The notes under the pieces: model-generated
The model's input: the letters and a program-made list of their open reading frames with translations, nothing else
What the model was told of the DNA's origin: nothing
Database searches by the model: none
Part shown: piece after piece, positions 185-15,631 of the stretch
Numbering within the stretch: position 1 is the stretch's first letter
How the letters are laid out: each line of letters starts with the position of its first letter
Translations under genes and position numbers: made by a program
Origin: a virus
Virus record (IMG/VR): IMGVR_UViG_3300047094_000285
Location: 1-24,845 of that record
Length of the DNA stretch: 24,845 bases
Direction: 5' to 3' (one strand)

Positions 185-499
185 ATGGACGCAAAAGAGT
201 TAAGAATAGGGAACTGGGTAAGATACCACCACAATGGCGGGTTTATAGATGCGCAGATATTTCATTTAACCGATGAAGATATAAATGTATTACCCATTGA
301 GCTTTCACCGGAGATACTAGAGAAGTGCGGGTTTGAAGATGAGTATGGCAATGGAAGATACTATTTTGATGGACTTGAGTATTACCATGGAAAGCTTTGG
401 TTTCGGACATCGGAAATTAAAATTCAATACCTGCACCAATTCCAGAATATTTATTTCGCTTTAACAGGCGAAGAGCTAGAGGTTAATTTAACCGTTTAA
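185..499 (+). CDS. Conserved-looking hypothetical phage protein
   Basis: This is a 104-residue ORF starting at ATG, with no signal peptide or membrane segment. Its N-terminus, KELRIGNWVRY, resembles a recurrent Bacteroidota phage family (proteins starting with an 'LRIGNWV' motif and followed by a 'PIELSPEILEKCGF'-like segment). That recognition is from memory and the function is unknown. The protein is acidic, with many Tyr and Phe, consistent with a small soluble protein. It sits 10 bp after the upstream fragment and 10 bp before the next small gene, upstream of the packaging genes. Confidence 0.75.
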   Translation: MDAKELRIGNWVRYHHNGGFIDAQIFHLTDEDINVLPIELSPEILEKCGFEDEYGNGRYYFDGLEYYHGKLWFRTSEIKIQYLHQFQNIYFALTGEELEVNLTV

Positions 500-509
500 A
501 AAATACATC

Positions 510-716
510 ATGGAACTAGAAATAAGCGAAGACGGCGGGCATACATTTCGAAATATTCAGGTTGTTACAAGCATTAGCAAAGATTTTACGGTATGGATTC
601 GCTACGAAGATGGCAGTGTACGGAGGGGCTATGTAGACTACTGGAATCCAGAATGGGACACAATAGAAGGCGTTTATAATGACAAGAAAGTAACAATAGG
701 GTTGGTTGAGTTTTAA
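510..716 (+). CDS. Hypothetical small acidic protein
   Basis: This is a 68-residue ORF with an ATG start. It is rich in Trp, Tyr and beta-branched residues and has no transmembrane segment, suggesting a small beta-rich soluble domain (for example WIRYEDGSVRRGYVDYWN). I do not recognise the family. It is the last gene before the 94-bp gap holding the promoter/terminator element upstream of the terminase genes. It therefore probably ends the upstream transcription unit. Confidence 0.65.
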   Translation: MELEISEDGGHTFRNIQVVTSISKDFTVWIRYEDGSVRRGYVDYWNPEWDTIEGVYNDKKVTIGLVEF

Positions 717-743
717 CCGTTGTTTAAAAAACGTGCATAATTA

Positions 744-777
744 TTGAATAATATCTAACAAAGTTTAGGTAAATTTG
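744..777 (+). promoter_or_regulatory. Bacteroidota-type promoter candidate upstream of terminase operon
   Basis: A TTG at 744-746 is followed after exactly 23 bp by TAAATTTG at 770-777. This matches the Bacteroidota sigma-A consensus TTG-N17-23-TAnnTTTG. The predicted transcription start, a few bases after the final G, is about 781-785, inside the left arm of the terminator hairpin at 778-801. The second candidate promoter in this window (14828-14861) has the same 23-bp spacing. The match is by eye only. Confidence 0.5.
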
Positions 778-805
778 AAGCGGGTTGAAAAATGCCCGCT
801 TTTTT
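778..805 (+). terminator. Rho-independent terminator before terminase genes
   Basis: The left arm AAGCGGG (778-784) pairs with CCCGCTT (795-801). This is a 7-bp GC-rich stem with a 10-nt loop, followed by T to 805, so the right arm runs into a U-tract. It lies about 60 bp after the small gene ending at 716 and just before the GTG start of TerS at 811. It would end transcription of the upstream block. Its left arm overlaps the predicted start of the adjacent promoter. Confidence 0.7.
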
Positions 806-810
806 CATTT

Positions 811-1167
811 GTGGCGTATAACAAAAATGAAATCCTACAACAGGCACTTTCGGCAATAGAAGAGCATAACTGCACAAAATTAGCCGAGGTGTTTTTGCAT
901 TTACCCATAGATGAGACTACTCTTTACACTTGGGAAATCGAGTTTCTCGATAAGATTAAGGCAAAAATAGCCGATCAGAAGGTAAAGATTAAGGCTAAAA
1001 TGAAAAAAAGGTGGTTTGATTCGGATAATCCAGCGCTAGCAATAGCAGCAATGAAGCTGATAGCCGATGAAGAAGAGATGGAAGCCTTAAACACGAGCAA
1101 AGTAAAGCAAGACAATACCCATTCCTTTAGTGATTTACCAACAGTAAACTTTGTCAGAAAAGATTGA
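811..1167 (+). CDS. Terminase small subunit (TerS)
   Basis: This protein would recognise phage DNA and recruit the large subunit for packaging. From the GTG at 811 it has 118 residues and begins MAYNKNEILQQALSAIEEH. That N-terminus, together with the KKRWFDSDNPALAIAAMKLI segment, matches my memory of the small-terminase family common in Bacteroidota phages. An upstream in-frame TTG at 775 would extend it through the terminator hairpin and the promoter -7 box, so I reject that start. The C-terminal part is polar and charged. It overlaps TerL by 17 nt, the usual TerS-TerL order. The family call is from pattern memory plus position. Confidence 0.8.
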   Translation: MAYNKNEILQQALSAIEEHNCTKLAEVFLHLPIDETTLYTWEIEFLDKIKAKIADQKVKIKAKMKKRWFDSDNPALAIAAMKLIADEEEMEALNTSKVKQDNTHSFSDLPTVNFVRKD

Positions 1168-2311
1168 TATAGAGGTTACGAGGCTGTATGAGGAAAATCT
1201 TGAAGCTCTTTTAAATAGCGATAAACGGTACATAGTTAATGAGGGCGGTGCTAGATCGGGCAAGTCGTATAGCATAATGCAAGTCCTAATAACCTATGCC
1301 ATAAACAACCCTAATACTTCCATAACGGTGGTATCCCATTCCCTTCCTCACTTGAAAAAGGGTGCTTTAAGGGACTTTGGGAACATAATAAAGGCGATGG
1401 GTTGGTATAGGGAAGCATGGCACAATATGAGCGATAACATATATAACCTGCCAAACGGTAGTTATATAGAGTTTTACGGGCTAGAGGAACACGACAAAGC
1501 AAAAGGCCCAGGCCGAAAGATACTGTTTATTAATGAGGCTAACCTTATCAGCAAGGCTCTATTTGACCAATTGGATATGCGTACCCAATACAAGGTTATA
1601 ATAGACCTCAACCCGTCAGATTTTGACTGTTGGTGTTACGCTGTGGCTGATGGTGACGATGCGGTTAAACTACATAGCACCTATAAGGATAACAAGTTTC
1701 TCCCAGCACCACAGATAAGGGTAATAGAAAGCTACAAAGATGCGGACGAGATGATGTGGCAGGTATTCGGACTAGGACTAAGGGGAACAAGCAAAGAACA
1801 GATCTACACCCATTGGAAGTTAACAGATAGCATACCTGAAGGCCAGGTTTTTTACGGCCTTGATTTTGGCTACAATGTGGCCTCAGCACTGGTGCGAATA
1901 ACAATAGCGGACGGTGTGGCCTATGTTAAGGAGATGCTCTATAAGACCCGATTAACTACCTCGGACCTAATAACAGAACTACAAAATTTAGCGTTGAAAC
2001 GGACAGATGAAATATTCTGTGATGCTGCCGAACCAAAGACAATTGAAGAATTATACCGGGCAGGATTTAACGTTAAGCCAGCGGACAAAGACGTAACAGA
2101 GGGAATAAGGAAAGTAAAGAGCTATCCTTTGTTCATCGAAAAGAACAGTTTAAACATCATAGCTGAGATAAAGAAATACAAGTGGAAAGTGGACAAGAAC
2201 GAGGTGGTATTAGATGAGCCGGATAAAGAGAATGACCACGTTATGGACGCGATGAGATACGCGATATTCACAAAAAGTAAAACACCTACGTTAACGTGGG
2301 GCGCAATATAA
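1151..2311 (+). CDS. Terminase large subunit (TerL)
   Basis: This is the packaging motor ATPase and nuclease that pumps DNA through the portal. It has 386 residues from a TTG start. Walker A is GGARSGKS (32-39), Walker B with its catalytic Glu is ILFINEA (124-130, E129), and a coupling-type motif IDLNP lies at 151-155. The C-terminal RNase H-like nuclease carries acidic residues in GLDFG (D238), FCDAAEP (D291) and NDHVMDAMRY (D362 and D366). All expected motifs are present, so the enzyme looks intact. Length is slightly short but normal for this compact class, similar to the PBSX/Terminase_3 type. The TTG start overlaps the end of TerS, and the portal gene follows after 3 bp. Confidence 0.95.
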   Translation: MSEKIDIEVTRLYEENLEALLNSDKRYIVNEGGARSGKSYSIMQVLITYAINNPNTSITVVSHSLPHLKKGALRDFGNIIKAMGWYREAWHNMSDNIYNLPNGSYIEFYGLEEHDKAKGPGRKILFINEANLISKALFDQLDMRTQYKVIIDLNPSDFDCWCYAVADGDDAVKLHSTYKDNKFLPAPQIRVIESYKDADEMMWQVFGLGLRGTSKEQIYTHWKLTDSIPEGQVFYGLDFGYNVASALVRITIADGVAYVKEMLYKTRLTTSDLITELQNLALKRTDEIFCDAAEPKTIEELYRAGFNVKPADKDVTEGIRKVKSYPLFIEKNSLNIIAEIKKYKWKVDKNEVVLDEPDKENDHVMDAMRYAIFTKSKTPTLTWGAI

Positions 2312-2314
2312 ACG

Positions 2315-3706
2315 ATGGGTTTATTTGACATCTTTAAGAAAAAAGGTTTAAATCCGAATCAGCCGACAATGCCTTTTCCGATGGTATTCGGCCAGACGGT
2401 GATGAGCCAATACAACAAACAAACATCAGTTGAGGATAGCTATGCTTCCAATGCGGATGTATATTCCATTGTTTCGCTCTTGGCAAGGAAGGCAAGTTCG
2501 ATTCCCTGGTATGTTTACAAGAAAAGCAAAGATAAAGGGGCTAAAGTAGCCTTAGAACGGTATAAAAGTCTTTCAAGGGGAATAAGTACGGGTTCGGTTG
2601 CTGAGGCCCTTAAATGGCGGGAAAAGGCCTACGATTCAGATGACATCGTTGAAGATGGGCAACTAGCTGAGATCCTGCAAAGACCTAACCCATCGCAGGG
2701 ACAAGATAAGTTCTTTGAGAGTTTATACACATGGTACTGGTTGACCGGGGAGGGATTTATCTGGGGCAATAACGGAGGATCAGATAATCCGAAAGCTCCC
2801 ATAGTAGAGATGTTCCCGCTACCTAGTCAGGAGATGGATCACATTCTAGATCCTAATGACATATTCGGAATACTAGGCTGGAAATTAAATGTAGCTAGGG
2901 GTATTCCTTTGAGCAAGGAATCGGTCCTTCAGTGGAAGATGCCTAACCCGACTGTAATTGATGACCATATAGGGATTAGGGGTATGAGTCCACTTCAGGC
3001 CGCTTATAGGACCTCAATGATGGGGAACGAGGCTGAGATAGCTGCCTATTCGATGATGAAGAACGGCGGCGCGAAGGGTGCGTTAAGTCCTGAGCCAGTT
3101 AACCAACAGGTGCCAATGGTGACACTTGAACAAGCGCACGAAATTAAAAACTTCATGCGTGACTATGTGAACGGTGGCACTAATAAAGGAAATATAACTG
3201 TACTTCAAACCCCCTGGAAATATCTTGATTTCGGTTTGAGTTCGGTAGATATGCAGCTGATAGAAAGCCAAAAGATTACCCTTCACAAACTTTGTAGGGT
3301 CTTTGGCGTGCCGGTGGTTCTGTTTGAGGCCGATTACATGACTGATAACAACTACCAGAATGCACTGAGGGACTTGGTAACTAATACGATAGTTCCTGCC
3401 ATAGCATCTTTGAGGGATGAATTAAACAGGTGGTTGGTATCGAAGAATGGCAATGATCAATACTATGTTGACTTTGACATTCAGGCTTTGCCAGAGTTGC
3501 AGAAAAACATACTAGAGTTGTTTAATGCTGTTAAGCATGCAGATCACCTTACGATGGATGAAAAGAGAGAGTTTACAGGGTATGAGGCAAGGGGCGGCGC
3601 ATACGCTTATTCTTATGTGAATAGTGGTTTAGTAAAGTTGGAAGACGTTGGAATGGATTTAACTATTGACGATGAATCAGGAGATATGGGCAATGGTGAT
3701 GACTAA
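2315..3706 (+). CDS. Portal protein (HK97-like)
   Basis: This would form the dodecameric ring at the capsid vertex through which DNA enters and leaves. It has 463 residues from ATG and opens with GLFDIFKKK, typical of HK97-family portals. It contains an early SIVSLLARKASSIPWYVYKK helix region. Near residues 325-340 is the conserved RVFGVPVVLFE core, followed by a helical segment ending in LRDELNRWLV. The extreme C-terminus is acidic and low in complexity. Its position directly after TerL supports the call, and length is normal for the family. It overlaps the next small ORF by 8 bases. Confidence 0.94.
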   Translation: MGLFDIFKKKGLNPNQPTMPFPMVFGQTVMSQYNKQTSVEDSYASNADVYSIVSLLARKASSIPWYVYKKSKDKGAKVALERYKSLSRGISTGSVAEALKWREKAYDSDDIVEDGQLAEILQRPNPSQGQDKFFESLYTWYWLTGEGFIWGNNGGSDNPKAPIVEMFPLPSQEMDHILDPNDIFGILGWKLNVARGIPLSKESVLQWKMPNPTVIDDHIGIRGMSPLQAAYRTSMMGNEAEIAAYSMMKNGGAKGALSPEPVNQQVPMVTLEQAHEIKNFMRDYVNGGTNKGNITVLQTPWKYLDFGLSSVDMQLIESQKITLHKLCRVFGVPVVLFEADYMTDNNYQNALRDLVTNTIVPAIASLRDELNRWLVSKNGNDQYYVDFDIQALPELQKNILELFNAVKHADHLTMDEKREFTGYEARGGAYAYSYVNSGLVKLEDVGMDLTIDDESGDMGNGDD

Positions 3707-6826: not shown

Positions 6827-6834
6827 TTAATAAA

Positions 6835-6861
6835 GGGGGAGGCCGTAACCTCCCTCTTTTT
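6835..6861 (+). terminator. Strong terminator/attenuator after the capsid gene
   Basis: GGGGGAGG (6835-6842) pairs with CCTCCCTC (6849-6856), an 8-bp stem with one G-T pair and a 6-nt loop. It is followed by five T (6857-6861), and three A before the stem extend the pairing. It lies between the capsid gene and the methyltransferase gene on a single-strand operon. I see no clear TAnnTTTG promoter in the 23 bp before the next gene. Partial readthrough would give high capsid and lower downstream expression. Confidence 0.85.
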
Positions 6862-6883
6862 AAACTACCTAAAACTAAAGACT

Positions 6884-7423
6884 TTGCCCATCGGTAGCTA
6901 TTCCGCCTTTAGAGATACAATAAGGCTTATTCTAATGAACAACCCTAAGACGGTATTAGACTTAGGCATAGGGCATGGAATAAACGGCGCAGGTGTTAGA
7001 AACTGGTTAGACAACGGAGTGAATTACAACACACAGTTAGAAGGTGTAGAAGGGTTTAACTACCGCTCTCCACTTTGGAGCTGTTACGATAAAGTTCACG
7101 AGTGTACTATTAAGGAGTTCTTTGAAAAGGATAACAGGAAATGGGATTGTATTCTCATGACAGATGTGATAGAACACTTCACAAAAGATGAAGGTGTTGA
7201 GGTGATTACTAGGGCGAAGGAAAGACTAAACGAAAAGGGTTTGTTTGTGATTGTTACGCCGGCAGTGTGGATAGAACAAGGTGCAGCGTATGGTAACGAA
7301 CTAGAGATACATAAGAGCCTATGGACTGCATTTGAATTTCAGGCACATGGCTTTCATGTTGTTAAAGACGGTACTAAGGATGATATGGGTTATATGATGA
7401 TCGTAATGGAATATATCAAATGA
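6884..7423 (+). CDS. SAM-dependent class I methyltransferase
   Basis: This is a predicted methyl transfer enzyme using S-adenosylmethionine; the substrate is unknown. It has 179 residues from a TTG start. The next in-frame ATG at residue 18 would remove the GSYSAFRDTIR segment, which I think belongs to the protein. Motif I is VLDLGIGHG (24-32), an acidic residue ends the second strand (LEGVEGF, 52-58), and CILMTDVIEHF (89-99) is the post-I/IV region, followed by the helix and KGLFVIVTP strand usual for the fold. It has no DNA-methylase (N/D)PP(Y/W) motif, so a small-molecule, sugar or protein substrate is likelier. It overlaps the glycosyltransferase by ATGA, which suggests joint action. Confidence 0.85.
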   Translation: MPIGSYSAFRDTIRLILMNNPKTVLDLGIGHGINGAGVRNWLDNGVNYNTQLEGVEGFNYRSPLWSCYDKVHECTIKEFFEKDNRKWDCILMTDVIEHFTKDEGVEVITRAKERLNEKGLFVIVTPAVWIEQGAAYGNELEIHKSLWTAFEFQAHGFHVVKDGTKDDMGYMMIVMEYIK

Positions 7424-8409
7424 GAATACTTTGCTCAATACACTTATACCCGCCAAAGCATAACTGCGGAGCTGAAGGGATGATTCACGCGATGAACAAG
7501 TACCTCCAAAGCAAAGGACACGAGGTAAGGGTTTTACTGTGGCAGGCGAATCATTACAAGATTGAAAACATCTACTGCTATGAAGGTATAGACGTTTTCC
7601 CTCCTGAGCAGAATTTAACAGAGACGCTATTCGCATGGAGTGATGTAGTGATGACACATCTAGACTACACCCAACAGACAATAGGGCTAGCAAGGGTGTT
7701 TAAGAAGCCTGTGGTCCACTTGATTCATAATTATTCAGTTTACCCAAGTATCGAACTAGCGGACAGGCCTCAGTATATCGTTTATAATTCAGAGGCGGCG
7801 AAAGAGAAACTAAACTACCAACACGAAAGTATTACAGTTCACCCTCCCGTTGATTGGAGGCAGTACGATATAAACCGAGATCCTGAGAAAAACCAATTTA
7901 TTACCCTCATAAACTTAGACGGCAACAAGGGTGGAAAGATACTGAGGGAGATAGCTACTAGGTTACCAGAAAAACAGTTCTTAGGTGTGAAAGGAAGTTA
8001 CTCAGAGCCAGCTAGCGAAGGACAACACATAAACCAACCTAGCAACGTAACGATAATGGATAATACGCCATTCATTATGAGGGCATACGAGCAAACTAGG
8101 ATACTAATAATGCCTAGCAAGTTTGAGAGTTGGGGAAGGACAGCCACAGAGGCTATGAGTTCAGGGATTCCGGTTATATGCAACCCAACACCAGGACTAA
8201 AAGAGAATTGTGCAGACGCGGGGATATATGTAGACAGGGACGATATAGACGGTTGGGTAAAGGCTATTAAGAAACTAGACGACCCGAAAGAGTATAAGAA
8301 AGCCAGCAAAAAGGCTAAGGAGAGAAGTAGGGAACTAGACCCTAACAAAGAATTGGAAGCATTTGAGGCATGGTTAACAGACGTGCCGAATAAATACACA
8401 TTCAGATGA
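7420..8409 (+). CDS. Glycosyltransferase, GT-B fold (GT4-like)
   Basis: This is a predicted sugar-transfer enzyme of 329 residues from ATG. The N-terminal domain starts RILCSIHLYPPKHNCGAEGM, where a Gly-rich GAEG loop is usual in GT4 enzymes. The C-terminal domain carries the E-x7-E nucleotide-sugar motif in FESWGRTATEAMSSGIPVI (E236 and E244). There is no membrane segment or signal peptide, so it would act in the cytoplasm on phage protein, DNA or a surface-polymer precursor. It is joined to the methyltransferase and to the connector gene by ATGA overlaps, so it is built into the structural operon. Host-surface modification, virion glycosylation and DNA modification all remain possible. Confidence 0.88.
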   Translation: MRILCSIHLYPPKHNCGAEGMIHAMNKYLQSKGHEVRVLLWQANHYKIENIYCYEGIDVFPPEQNLTETLFAWSDVVMTHLDYTQQTIGLARVFKKPVVHLIHNYSVYPSIELADRPQYIVYNSEAAKEKLNYQHESITVHPPVDWRQYDINRDPEKNQFITLINLDGNKGGKILREIATRLPEKQFLGVKGSYSEPASEGQHINQPSNVTIMDNTPFIMRAYEQTRILIMPSKFESWGRTATEAMSSGIPVICNPTPGLKENCADAGIYVDRDDIDGWVKAIKKLDDPKEYKKASKKAKERSRELDPNKELEAFEAWLTDVPNKYTFR

Positions 8410-10985: not shown

Positions 10986-12778
10986 GCGAAGGTTTACGCG
11001 TCCCGATAGGCGCAGATATTAGTGGCTTGCAAAAAGGCGTTAGCGAAGCTGAACGCACAATTAAGCAGTTTGGGTTTACTATTGAGAAAATAGGCGGCAA
11101 GGGCTTCCCATCTTTATTTGATAACGTACAACAGTTAGAAAAGGAAGTAAAGAAGTTTGGATTTACTATTGAGAAAGTAGGTGGTAAGGGATTCCCATCA
11201 TTTTACGATAACTTGAGAAAAATACCGCCAGTAGCAAAGACTGCTGGGGATGCTCTCGGTGGTATTGCAAATGGGGCGCAAAAGGCTGCTAATGCTGTTC
11301 CTTCACTTAATGCACTCGGACAAGTAGCTCGTGACCTTCCTTTCGGGTTTATTGCCATTCAGAATAACTTACCAATCGTATTAGACCAGTTTACTGCATT
11401 ATCAAGGGCTTCAGGCGGTACAGGTGCAGCGTTAAAGGCTTTGGGTGCTTCTTTGTTTGGCCCTGCTGGATTAGCTTTTGCCTTTGGTGCAGTTACCGCA
11501 GGCGTTACGGCTTTGATTCAGAAATACGGTTCTTTGAGTGGGGCGTTCAATGCTCTTATAGGAGGAACAAAACAATTAACGGAGGCGCAAAAAAAGAGCG
11601 TAGAGGGCATAAGTGATGAACTAGCTAACATTAGTTTGCTGGTGAATCTTTACCCTCAATTGGCAGGTAGGAGGGAAGACCAAGACAAGATCCTAAAGAA
11701 GCTGAACCAATCGGCACCTACTTACTTTAAAAGCCTTGATAGCGAAAGGGTAACGGTTGACCAATTAACTAAAAGCTACGACAAATATGTAAAGAGCCTT
11801 TTAGGAAAAATATTCATCGAATCCCAACAGGAAAGACTTAGAGAGGTTGCTAAGAAGTATGCAGAAGACTTGGTAAGGCTGAATGATGCACAGGTAAAGG
11901 GCGCACAACAAAGAGATAAGGACGCTAACAAGATAAAGAATGAGCTTGACCTTATTGAAAGATTGGGTAAAGCTCAACAAGGGCTTAGGGGTGATATCGC
12001 AATAGGTGTTGAGGTTGTTGCAACCAAAAAAACATTTGATGAGGCGTTTCAGGATATTATAGACAACTTCAGAAAGCAGGCAGACGCAATTTTAGGCGGC
12101 ACAGAGCAAATAGTAAGCAAACTAGACTTTGGATCTATATTTGAAGATGCAACCGCAAAAGACGTTAAAGGTATTAAGATAGTTCCTGACATTGACGTAC
12201 CGGGATCTTTACAAACACTAACCAACCAAACACGAGACTTTGGTAGTGCTTTCTCAGACCAAGTAGTAAGGGACATACAAGAGGCTTTTAGTAAACTAAA
12301 GGTTAACGGCAGAATAAATATCATCCCATCTACTGAGGTGCAAAATGCCATTGGTGGGCTTGAGGCAATTAAGAACAAGACGGCAGAGATTACAGGGCAG
12401 TTTAACGAGTTCCTTGCACCTGCAATTCAAACGGTATTTGGTGCATTGGAAAACGGACAGAGTGTAGGCAAGGCATTGGCACAGTCATTCAAGGCTCTTG
12501 TGGTTCAAATTGCGTTAACCGTTGCAAAGGCTGCAATACTTGCTGCTATATTAAACTCAATATTTCCTGGCGGTACGGTTATCGGCGGTGCTGCTGTTAA
12601 AGGGTTTGGTGGAATCTTTGGTGCTTTATCGGGCTTAGGAGGTGTGGCCGCGCCATCGTTTGGCGGTTTATCAGGTGGCGGTTTACAGTTAAGCGGACAA
12701 GTTAACTTAACAGGAAGGGGAACCGACTTTGTAGGCATAATGAACGCCGGAAACGCTCAAATAAGGAGGGTAGGGTAA
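10982..12778 (+). CDS. Tape measure protein
   Basis: This sets tail length and passes into the host during DNA entry. It has 598 residues from the ATGA-overlap start. It begins with amphipathic helical repeats (residues 29-48 and 58-77 share QFGFTIEK-GGKGFPS). A hydrophobic segment at about 150-185 is rich in Ala, Gly and Phe. A long charged coiled-coil middle follows, and then a second hydrophobic, Gly-rich C-terminal region (about 500-575). At about 0.15 nm per residue the tail would be near 90 nm, so this is a short-tailed siphovirus. No peptidase or lysozyme domain is visible. Confidence 0.9.
   Translation: MSEGLRVPIGADISGLQKGVSEAERTIKQFGFTIEKIGGKGFPSLFDNVQQLEKEVKKFGFTIEKVGGKGFPSFYDNLRKIPPVAKTAGDALGGIANGAQKAANAVPSLNALGQVARDLPFGFIAIQNNLPIVLDQFTALSRASGGTGAALKALGASLFGPAGLAFAFGAVTAGVTALIQKYGSLSGAFNALIGGTKQLTEAQKKSVEGISDELANISLLVNLYPQLAGRREDQDKILKKLNQSAPTYFKSLDSERVTVDQLTKSYDKYVKSLLGKIFIESQQERLREVAKKYAEDLVRLNDAQVKGAQQRDKDANKIKNELDLIERLGKAQQGLRGDIAIGVEVVATKKTFDEAFQDIIDNFRKQADAILGGTEQIVSKLDFGSIFEDATAKDVKGIKIVPDIDVPGSLQTLTNQTRDFGSAFSDQVVRDIQEAFSKLKVNGRINIIPSTEVQNAIGGLEAIKNKTAEITGQFNEFLAPAIQTVFGALENGQSVGKALAQSFKALVVQIALTVAKAAILAAILNSIFPGGTVIGGAAVKGFGGIFGALSGLGGVAAPSFGGLSGGGLQLSGQVNLTGRGTDFVGIMNAGNAQIRRVG
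11067..11212 (+). repeat. Tandem 87-bp repeat in tape measure gene
   Basis: Two 59-bp stretches, 11067-11125 and 11154-11212, are closely alike at an 87-bp period. They encode the paired FGFTIEK-GGKGFPS modules at residues 29-48 and 58-77. The differences are mostly silent or conservative, which indicates a recent in-frame duplication of 29 codons. Confidence 0.85.
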
Positions 12779-12890: not shown

Positions 12891-14822
12891 TTGAGTTACG
12901 CAATAAAATACCAGTACGACTTCAAAACCCTTCAGGGGGATGACTGTATTGTTTACTTCTTTTTTAAAGACTATTCAGGGGGAGTAACTTACCTTAATCC
13001 GGGTGTAAGGCCGTTTGTTTTAAGAGAGTTCAACCAAGATAACGACTTTTTTAAACCTATTCGGGGACAGCAAGCGGAATTACAGATAGTATCTAACAAC
13101 GTACAGTTGGATGACTTTCTATTCGGCGATGATGACGCGGTACAAGTACAATTCTTTTTTAACGCATCTGTGTACTGGATAGGTTGGCTAATGCAAGATG
13201 ACTTTCAGGAAGATTGGACAGATTCAAACCATTACATTACCTTAAGGGCAACGGACGGGCTAGGACAGATAAGCGAAGATCCAAAGATAACCATTGACGG
13301 CCTCGGTGCTATTGATGATTATTTAAGTACAGCCATTAGTTCAACACCTATCCCGACTTTCTTAGGGACTACTATCATTAACCATCTATTCTACGTTGGA
13401 ATGAATGACGCTAGCGGGCAGCATCCAATGAATCAGGTTTATATTGATGGTAAGACATTTGAAAAGGACAATAACCAACAGATAGTTGAAAAGATAAACA
13501 AGTCATGGAGTCAAACTCTTTACCAATATTTAGGTAAATGGTGGTTTGTACGCCAAGAACAGTTCTTGCATTCTGGGAACATCTCAGGAATTATCAGGGG
13601 TGCTTTCTCAAATTCTACGTTTAGTAAATCCTTTACCACATTAGTAGGAGTTAACGAAGATATGAAGCCTATCCAGCCTTTTATGTTAAGGCAGGTAAGA
13701 AGGCCGAGCAAAGAAACTAGGGTTGATTACCGTTATGAATTCCCAGACGAAATTATCTGCAATCAAACGTTTTTACGTGGTGATTTAATTGTACCCACTA
13801 CTAATACATATACGGTAGAATGTTGGACGTATTACCGAGGTGTTGCTGGTTCAGTTACTACGGCCACTGGCGAAAATTACAGGGTGGAGGAAAAAGATGT
13901 AGATGGGAATATAATTGATAACTACGTTAAGCTAAAAATAACAGCTTTTCAGGATCATGTACTTATGAGCCAGCCTACATACATGAATGTAAACGATTCT
14001 GTTGACTTTGGCTTTGACATTAGGTTTCCTTTGGGCGGTTCAACACCTGCAAACATACTCGCTTGTAATGTGTCCGTAGAGGCCGCAGGTGGCATAGTTT
14101 ATTATCTTGATTCGGACGGAAATTGGGTTACCTCTACTGGATTCGGAGGCCTAAGAACTTACATCAACATACCTTATACATCGGTTGAGAGAAAACAAGA
14201 TTGGAAAACAATATCCATAAAAAGTAAAGCACTCCCGGCTGGAGGGACGTTAAAAATATGGCTATTCGGTGATTCTACCATCGTTAATACTGAGGTGGAT
14301 TTCAAAAATATAGAGTTTGGTGTGAGGGAAGCATCTAAGTTGCCGGGCGTTGTGGGTGACTTCGACAGATACACATTAACCAATGACGTAAGGAACAACT
14401 TTAAAGAGCAAACCTACCTAGACGATTCTAACAACCGTTCACACAAGGGAGCTTTATTCTTTGACAATGACCTAACCGGGGACAATTGGTATCGAAAAAC
14501 ATTCGACACCGAGAGATTCACCTTTAAGCGACACAAGGCTATTGCTCACATGCTCTTAAATAAAAGGTACAGAAACCGGCTAGAGGTTACCATGCTCGGA
14601 ATAAAGAACAACGAAGGCAACCCAATAGGATTAATGAACAGGTTTCAGCTAGTTGATGATGCACCTACTAAACTTTTTATGTTGGCTAACCTTAGTGAGA
14701 TTGATTTCAGCGCGGCCACTTGGAAAGGCAATTTAATTGAGGTGTACGATACGGACGTAGATAGCGAAGTTGCCGCATATCCAGATCACAGTTTTGGTAA
14801 TATTTATGGAAAAGATGTTTAA
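12891..14822 (+). CDS. Tail tip / distal tail protein (large, Bacteroidota phage type)
   Basis: This is a 643-residue protein from TTG that probably forms part of the tail tip downstream of the tape measure. The N-terminus has the pattern AIKYQYDFKTLQGDDC followed by FKPIRGQQAELQIVSNN and WIGWLMQDDFQEDW. I recognise this as a family placed after tape measure genes in Bacteroidota phages. It is beta-rich throughout and has no signal peptide. A middle segment (LPAGGTLKIWLFGDSTIVNTEVDFKN, about 446-470) looks like a carbohydrate-binding beta sandwich. The C-terminal part (KRHKAIAHMLLNKRYRNRLEVTMLG) resembles a hub-like domain. The exact role is inferred from position. Confidence 0.7.
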   Translation: MSYAIKYQYDFKTLQGDDCIVYFFFKDYSGGVTYLNPGVRPFVLREFNQDNDFFKPIRGQQAELQIVSNNVQLDDFLFGDDDAVQVQFFFNASVYWIGWLMQDDFQEDWTDSNHYITLRATDGLGQISEDPKITIDGLGAIDDYLSTAISSTPIPTFLGTTIINHLFYVGMNDASGQHPMNQVYIDGKTFEKDNNQQIVEKINKSWSQTLYQYLGKWWFVRQEQFLHSGNISGIIRGAFSNSTFSKSFTTLVGVNEDMKPIQPFMLRQVRRPSKETRVDYRYEFPDEIICNQTFLRGDLIVPTTNTYTVECWTYYRGVAGSVTTATGENYRVEEKDVDGNIIDNYVKLKITAFQDHVLMSQPTYMNVNDSVDFGFDIRFPLGGSTPANILACNVSVEAAGGIVYYLDSDGNWVTSTGFGGLRTYINIPYTSVERKQDWKTISIKSKALPAGGTLKIWLFGDSTIVNTEVDFKNIEFGVREASKLPGVVGDFDRYTLTNDVRNNFKEQTYLDDSNNRSHKGALFFDNDLTGDNWYRKTFDTERFTFKRHKAIAHMLLNKRYRNRLEVTMLGIKNNEGNPIGLMNRFQLVDDAPTKLFMLANLSEIDFSAATWKGNLIEVYDTDVDSEVAAYPDHSFGNIYGKDV

Positions 14823-14827
14823 AAATA

Positions 14828-14861
14828 TTGCATAAGATTTAATAGAGTTTGAATAATTTTG
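14828..14861 (+). promoter_or_regulatory. Promoter candidate before the second tail-tube-like gene
   Basis: TTG at 14828-14830 and TAATTTTG at 14854-14861 are separated by 23 bp, the same as in the promoter candidate at 744-777. The predicted start falls at about 14865-14868, next to the ATG at 14867, so the message could be almost leaderless. A direct repeat TTTGAATAA at 14848-14856 and 14858-14866 overlaps the -7 box. This gap is one of the few in the operon without a stop/start overlap. Confidence 0.45.
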
Positions 14862-14866
14862 AATAA

Positions 14867-15631
14867 ATGGCGGTACAACCAAAAGCAGTCATTCTTTACG
14901 CGAAAATAGGTAGTGTATACTATCCTGTGGCGTGTGCTAAGGATGTCAATGTAACCACTACTGCCGACTTGTTAGAACTTGCTCCACGATCTAGCGGAGT
15001 GTGGAAGGAATACGAATACGGTAGGCTTTCAGCTACCATCTCAGGATCGGGTATTACAACGATAAACCCAAGTGGCAACCTTTATACAATTTTTGACGTA
15101 TTAGGCCAGCAACTAAACCAACTGAAGTTTTTAGTAAAGTTTTCAGTACAAGAGGAAACAAGCTATAAAGTATTAGAGGCCAACGTATTAGTAGAGGAAT
15201 GCAACATCGCGGGGAGTTCTACAACCTTTTCAAATTACACCTATTCGCTCAGGGTGACAGGCCCGGTTTCGGTATCGAGTACTGAGGTTGCTAATACTAA
15301 TCCTCAGATATTGGTATATGAATACACCGCAACGGGTGGTGAGGTGAGTTTGACGCTTCCTTTTGGCGACAATGCTACTATCCTTTTGGTTGAATACGGT
15401 TCAACGGGAGCAATACCTGTTTTTATCTTTCCTGACGGTTACGGGCCTGGACAGGTACAATACAATCCAGCAACGAAACAAATGCTATTCGGCACTGCTA
15501 TGACGGCGGGGCTTTACATTAGGATCTTATACGTTGACGTGGATAGCGTGGTAGGTACTTCGCTATATCTAGAGGATGGAACGGGAGACTTTATAGAAGA
15601 CGGGACAGGGGCAGAAATTACTAGCGGATGA
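14867..15631 (+). CDS. Second tail-tube-like protein with C-terminal beta domain
   Basis: This is a 254-residue protein from ATG. Residues 1 to about 130 look like a tail-tube beta domain (AVILYAKIGSVYYPVACAKD, then EYEYGRLSATISGSG, then a LKFLVKFSVQ strand) with layout like the tube protein at 9956. Residues about 145-235 form a second beta domain with a VQYNPATKQMLFG turn and LYIRILYVDV strand. The C-terminus has a DGTGDFIEDGTG repeat. It probably forms a ring at the tail tip or a fibre-attachment layer. It overlaps the next gene by ATGA. The function is inferred. Confidence 0.6.
   Translation: MAVQPKAVILYAKIGSVYYPVACAKDVNVTTTADLLELAPRSSGVWKEYEYGRLSATISGSGITTINPSGNLYTIFDVLGQQLNQLKFLVKFSVQEETSYKVLEANVLVEECNIAGSSTTFSNYTYSLRVTGPVSVSSTEVANTNPQILVYEYTATGGEVSLTLPFGDNATILLVEYGSTGAIPVFIFPDGYGPGQVQYNPATKQMLFGTAMTAGLYIRILYVDVDSVVGTSLYLEDGTGDFIEDGTGAEITSG

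Follow-up and report, generated by a model that had tools for sequence, protein, structure and literature searches.

In the transposons IS10 and IS50, transcripts that enter from outside fold a structure that is absent from the native transcripts, and the element is thereby protected from read-through transcription. The locus described here lies in a stretch of 24,845 nt (the window; IMG/VR record IMGVR_UViG_3300047094_000285, positions 1–24,845) from a virus of Bacteroidota bacteria, where a putative late promoter upstream of the terminase small subunit gene (terS) overlaps an intrinsic terminator, and it is like those transposons in that external RNA would fold a structure that the native RNA lacks; it differs in that they are transposons, act on translation and have enterobacterial promoters. 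We consider it likely that the promoter starts RNA at about position 782, within the left arm of the terminator stem, so that early RNA running in from upstream would stop there and late RNA would escape. Late promoters inside hairpins have been described for the T4 genes e, soc, I-TevI and segB and for mobE of phage Aeh1 (PMC3014915, PMC2988022).

In the T4 genes, as is predicted here, RNA starts within the 5' arm or past it, and the long early or middle RNA folds a hairpin that the late RNA cannot. The present hairpin differs from the T4 type in having the form of an intrinsic terminator, in standing ahead of a whole late operon and in belonging to a promoter of the Bacteroidota sigma type; moreover, the output in T4 is masking of the ribosome binding site of one gene, whereas here termination at the head of the operon is likely to be the main step. 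Predicted pairing at the terS GTG gave no sign that a hairpin sequesters the start codon or ribosome binding site as in the T4 type, and we thus regard the element as one that would work like that type without being a member of it. For lambda Q and AlpA (PMC6606751, PMC9371919), a terminator likewise stands downstream of a phage-type late promoter, but in those systems transcription starts ahead of the terminator and needs a protein to get past it, whereas here the start is predicted to fall in the stem and no factor would be involved. With the sigma-ABfr promoters (TTTG / TAnnTTTG) the locus shares the -7 box and, if the predicted start is right, the 4–5 nt to the start and the usual leader length (PMC7366714, PMC6847099, PMC9723704); it differs from them in its 23-bp spacer and in a phage-specific sequence between the boxes that is common to two late promoters. 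No direct precedent for nested promoter-terminators was found in the open literature searched, which is not proof of absence.

The -7 box, TAAATTTG, matches the consensus TAnnTTTG (TAHHTTTG) of the Bacteroidota primary sigma factor and follows a TTG and a 23-bp spacer (747–769). Directly after the box begins the stem AAGCGGG (778–784)/CCCGCTT (795–801), which grows by a U785–G794 pair inside and a G777–U802 pair outside to nine pairs around a loop of 8 nt, and the T-tract directly after this GC-rich stem completes the form of an intrinsic terminator. A preliminary description made from the sequence had claimed this overlap, and each of its coordinates (TTG, 23 bp, box, stem and T-tract to 805) was confirmed; terminator prediction was also favourable, the RNA fold of 778–806 reaching −12.9 kcal/mol (z −3.9), a value that none of 200 shuffles equalled. 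Estimates for the hairpin range from about −12.9 to −14.6 kcal/mol, with −14.2 kcal/mol for the full stem. The motif alone, though, is no proof, because it matches no better than chance: TAnnTTTG was seen 5 times on the + strand of the window against ~11 expected, which is no over-representation, and TTG-N17-23-TAnnTTTG twice against ~1.7, so that comparison must carry the case, and the comparative data described below go well beyond chance. On the + strand, the box at 770 has no canonical counterpart before 5944, and at the window's box density a box no more than 5 nt from the start of a strong stem is expected for ~0.5% of terminators. Among 155 terminators in ~1 Mb of related DNA, two weaker cases of a box near a stem were found, neither in a terS leader, and nesting of terminators in promoters was not seen to be a general trait. 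Rfam held no match for the element, and sigma-70-type promoters were found upstream no more often than by chance.

The proposed mechanism follows the geometry of the site, which would be the boundary between early and late genes. Polymerase coming from the early genes would transcribe the whole hairpin and terminate at ~805–810, just before the terS start codon; the rare read-through RNA would have a stable stem 8 nt before that codon and may be translated less well. RNA started at 782 would lack A778–C781 and keep a stem of at most 4 bp, and would escape to read the late operon, with the right arm and T-tract serving as the terS leader. The computed stem energy depends steeply on the start, at −11.5 kcal/mol for RNA from 780, −7.3 from 781, −6.2 from 782, −2.0 from 783 and 0 from 784, with four pairs left at best from 782, three from 783 and none from 784. 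The RNA from 782 would, in addition, be only ~24 nt long as polymerase leaves the T-tract, and a stem in an RNA of this length is too close to its end to form clear of the polymerase; the loss of the stem and the shortness of the RNA together would thus permit escape. The choice of start site would set the outcome, and no protein would be needed.

The likely start was estimated from relatives, taken as 88 loci with related TerL genes that form 47 clusters at 80% DNA identity. TAnnTTTG occurs within 45 nt before terS in 16 of the 47 clusters, against 1 on the reverse strand and 0–4 in neighbouring 45-nt windows; with the window's own lineage excluded, the box is present in 14 of 45 independent relatives versus 1 of 45 on the reverse strand (Fisher p 1.7e-4). 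The gap between box and ATG is exactly 4 nt in seven independent clusters (~1e-6 after correction); it is 3 nt in locus L007, where the start codon is a GTG (663), and 29 nt in locus L004 (ATG at 3129). Promoters mapped in Flavobacterium johnsoniae have 4 or 5 nt from box to start (PMC6847099). Since the gaps in the leaderless-looking relatives put the start 4–5 positions past the end of the box, the start in the window is predicted at about 782, inside the left arm and within the range of 781–785 that had been given before. In eight of the relatives (L011, L049, L054, L058, L064, L065, L101 and L007:652–663) the -7 box ends 3–4 nt before the terS start codon, which implies that their terS mRNA is leaderless; leaderless mRNAs make up ~4–6% in Bacteroidota (PMC9723704, PMC7366714).

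A second copy of the promoter was found ahead of the major tail protein gene, its box 5 nt before the ATG. The segment 14824–14863 aligns without gaps to 740–779, with 30 of 40 positions identical and both TTG and box in register, and no Markov shuffle of the window, out of 100, scored higher than 28. The pattern common to the two sites, TAAYARAGTTTRRRTAANTTTGAA, has two exact matches in the window where 0 are expected, but as it was derived from those same sites, the shuffle test is the fairer one. The phage thus carries at least two predicted late promoters of one type, with a terminator only at the copy on the early/late boundary, and a second copy without a hairpin fits an insulator that would be used only where early transcription runs in. 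As a separate observation, GTTTAAAAANNNNGCATAA occurs exactly at 722–740 and at 14817–14835, hence at both late promoters, with its position against the box shifted by 11 bp, about one turn of the helix; it could be an upstream activator site or a chance occurrence in AT-rich DNA, and we dropped it as support because it is unspecific in viral contigs and lies at a different distance from the box at the two sites.

The promoter-terminator block of 88 bp is kept with one substitution in two relatives, L004 and L005, in the latter as part of a 97-bp match, and in both it stands beside a terS that has no meaningful similarity to that of the window and that begins with ATG one nucleotide past the T-tract; the terS of L004 is phrog_309-like. 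The DNA of L004 is unrelated on both flanks of the block, and L005 has upstream of it the counterpart of window gene 185–499 and lacks the next gene. Between the window and a block-carrying relative, the TerL DNA is only 85% identical. The terS of L007, in contrast, is homologous to that of the window, beginning GTG-GCA-TAT where the window has GTG-GCG-TAT, and because the box of L007 lies 3 nt from this equivalent start, the terminator appears as an extra piece of ~30 nt, set between box and start codon, in the window's lineage. Conservation of promoter and stem together, which the preliminary description had proposed to look for in related phages, came out in its favour: the two go together in the three haplotypes found, two of them beside non-homologous terS genes, and more distant relatives keep the box before terS and not this hairpin. 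We suggest, tentatively and with rather less assurance than for the start within the stem, that the 88 bp may be an exchangeable cassette that insulates the late operon in one direction without any factor and stays intact while neighbouring genes are swapped.

Searches farther afield returned little. An exact scan for the stem found, outside the window's lineage, only unrelated stems without a box, and the extended promoter pattern matched only in this phage group; four extra matches to a promoter fragment, apparently in coding DNA, were set aside as chance, as were four short matches to the element in 299 genomes of the order. The specific pattern of stem plus box was absent from 297 genomes of the phylum, and named phages had no match to the first 6 kb of the window or to the element. 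Upstream of terS in L068 (2686–2745) and in L112, a terminator-like hairpin stands in the reverse order, directly upstream of a -7 box and overlapping the spacer.

The gene content on either side agrees with the positions at which early transcription would end and late transcription begin. Locus L036 is the same phage on another contig, identical to the window where they are shared, and adds 7.6 kb upstream with helicase, DNA methylase, NinG and DnaA-C-type genes on the same strand and pointing to the element; across these 7.6 kb, no strong terminator-like site other than the hairpin was found on its strand. Downstream of the element lie terminase, portal, protease, capsid and tail genes. In phages, DNA-metabolism genes of the classes found upstream are early and structural genes are late, and the labels "early transcription" and "late operon" of the preliminary description are supported to this extent. 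Profile searches gave terS no family match of its own; its homologues in L008 and L007 can be aligned with it from the first residue on, which supports the GTG start. Between T-tract and start codon there are 5 nt in the window (805/811) and 1 nt in L004 (807-equivalent), so that a dedicated terS promoter cannot sit downstream of the hairpin.

Several observations weigh against a start within the stem as the basis of a switch. The relatives show no enrichment of the -33 TTG, whatever the spacing, and the 23-bp spacer is at the long end of the range; although the TTG recurs at the identical spacing in the second promoter, so that the TTG-plus-23-bp element first described stands in that respect and lacks the support of the relatives, it is still the weakest part of the element. 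Only one phage group, with three haplotypes, carries the nested form; the identity of these may be due in part to recent recombination as well as to selection, and among the three there are no compensatory stem changes to count. Finally, RNA that began at 780 or farther upstream would retain a stem at least as strong as −11.5 kcal/mol.

The main rival is compaction, in which an ordinary end-of-operon terminator and an ordinary late promoter have come to overlap without forming a special switch: early RNA would end and late RNA begin here, but the start position would not have been selected; it differs from a start within the stem mainly over whether the exact start position matters. Terminator-like hairpins do occur upstream of terS in L008, L013 and L068, the last of which then has a separate box, and the nesting is confined to one lineage. 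However, with the hairpin placed 3' of the box, a late promoter that started RNA ahead of the stem would be blocked by it, which makes the geometry functionally consequential whatever its origin, and the block is intact beside two unrelated terS genes; we regard compaction as unlikely. One could also envision antitermination, with the true promoter in the early region or otherwise 5' of 778, and with a factor like lambda Q, lambda N or AlpA carrying polymerase past the terminator late in infection. This logic is known from lambda Q and AlpA, with a factor that is loaded at the promoter and then overrides the terminator beyond it (PMC6606751, PMC9371919), and all 88 bp are conserved, including ~50 bp upstream of the box with a small dyad, ATTATTGAATAAT, at 740–752. 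As an operator this dyad was not significant and was discarded. We think antitermination improbable: positions 1 to 770 hold no further canonical -7 box on the + strand, the copy of the promoter ahead of the tail gene has no terminator, and among the genes searched none was recognised as encoding an antiterminator. Least probable of all, and hardly to be expected, is a translational switch of the kind found in T4 e, soc and I-TevI, in which the hairpin terminates weakly and acts mainly on the long early RNA by hindering ribosomes at terS: the geometry is that of T4 (PMC3014915, PMC2988022), the start codon is 1–5 nt past the T-tract and, in F. johnsoniae, genes with structure close to this codon are translated less (PMC6847099), but the stem ends at 802 and leaves the start codon uncovered, the predicted pairing at 804–813 is equal in the long RNA and the RNA from 782, and a six-T tract after a GC stem suits a terminator and not a translational block.

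If RNA does start within the stem, the element would be a protein-free block on run-in transcription, in under 90 bp, behind which the late promoter still runs, and it would supply a late-promoter motif for this phage group and, for use in Bacteroidota, an insulated promoter in ready-made form. The timing of gene expression in Bacteroidota phages is poorly known. The reading makes a sharp prediction, namely that reading of the operon should depend on whether RNA starts at 782 or at 778.

Table 1. Features of the promoter-terminator element, its second copy and the adjoining genes (window coordinates).
Feature	Position	Strand	Evidence or remark
Last two genes of upstream, probably early, array	185..716	+	Open reading frames 185-499 (phrog_10066) and 510-716
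88-bp promoter-terminator block	721..808	+	One mismatch in L004; inside 97-bp match in L005
Putative late promoter region (TTG to box plus GAA)	740..779	+	30/40 ungapped identity with 14824-14863
TTG, possible -33 element, weak evidence	744..746	+	Identical spacing in second promoter
-7 box TAAATTTG	770..777	+	Position conserved before terS in relatives
Intrinsic terminator (predicted), stem 777-785/794-802, T-tract 800-805	777..805	+	Fold -14.2 kcal/mol
Predicted transcription start, best 782	781..783	+	Box-to-start-codon gaps of relatives; F. johnsoniae starts
terS, terminase small subunit, GTG start	811..1167	+	Aligns from residue 1 with L008 and L007 small-subunit open reading frames; adjoins terL
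terL, terminase large subunit	1151..2311	+	Terminase_3 4e-15; Terminase_3C 1.1e-8; phrog_2 4.9e-39
Second putative late promoter copy, no hairpin	14824..14863	+	TTG 14828-14830, N23, TAATTTTG 14854-14861
Major tail protein gene, ATG 5 nt past second box	14867..15631	+	phrog_1407 2.6e-9

Four further features of the window were noted. The open reading frame 510–716 behaves like an insertion/deletion cassette, being missing in L005 (2200–2215) and lying, in the window, between direct repeats of TTTAACCGTT (496–720). Directly 3' of the capsid gene, at 6833–6862, a hairpin GGGAGG-N6-CCTCCC followed by TCTTTTT (fold −18.1 kcal/mol) is likely to be a post-capsid terminator or attenuator. Methyltransferase and glycosyltransferase genes occupy 6884–8409, between the capsid and head-tail genes, which is an odd site for sugar-modifying genes. 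The tape-measure gene contains two 63-bp repeats (11063–11125 and 11150–11212) that are 84% identical and lie 87 bp apart.
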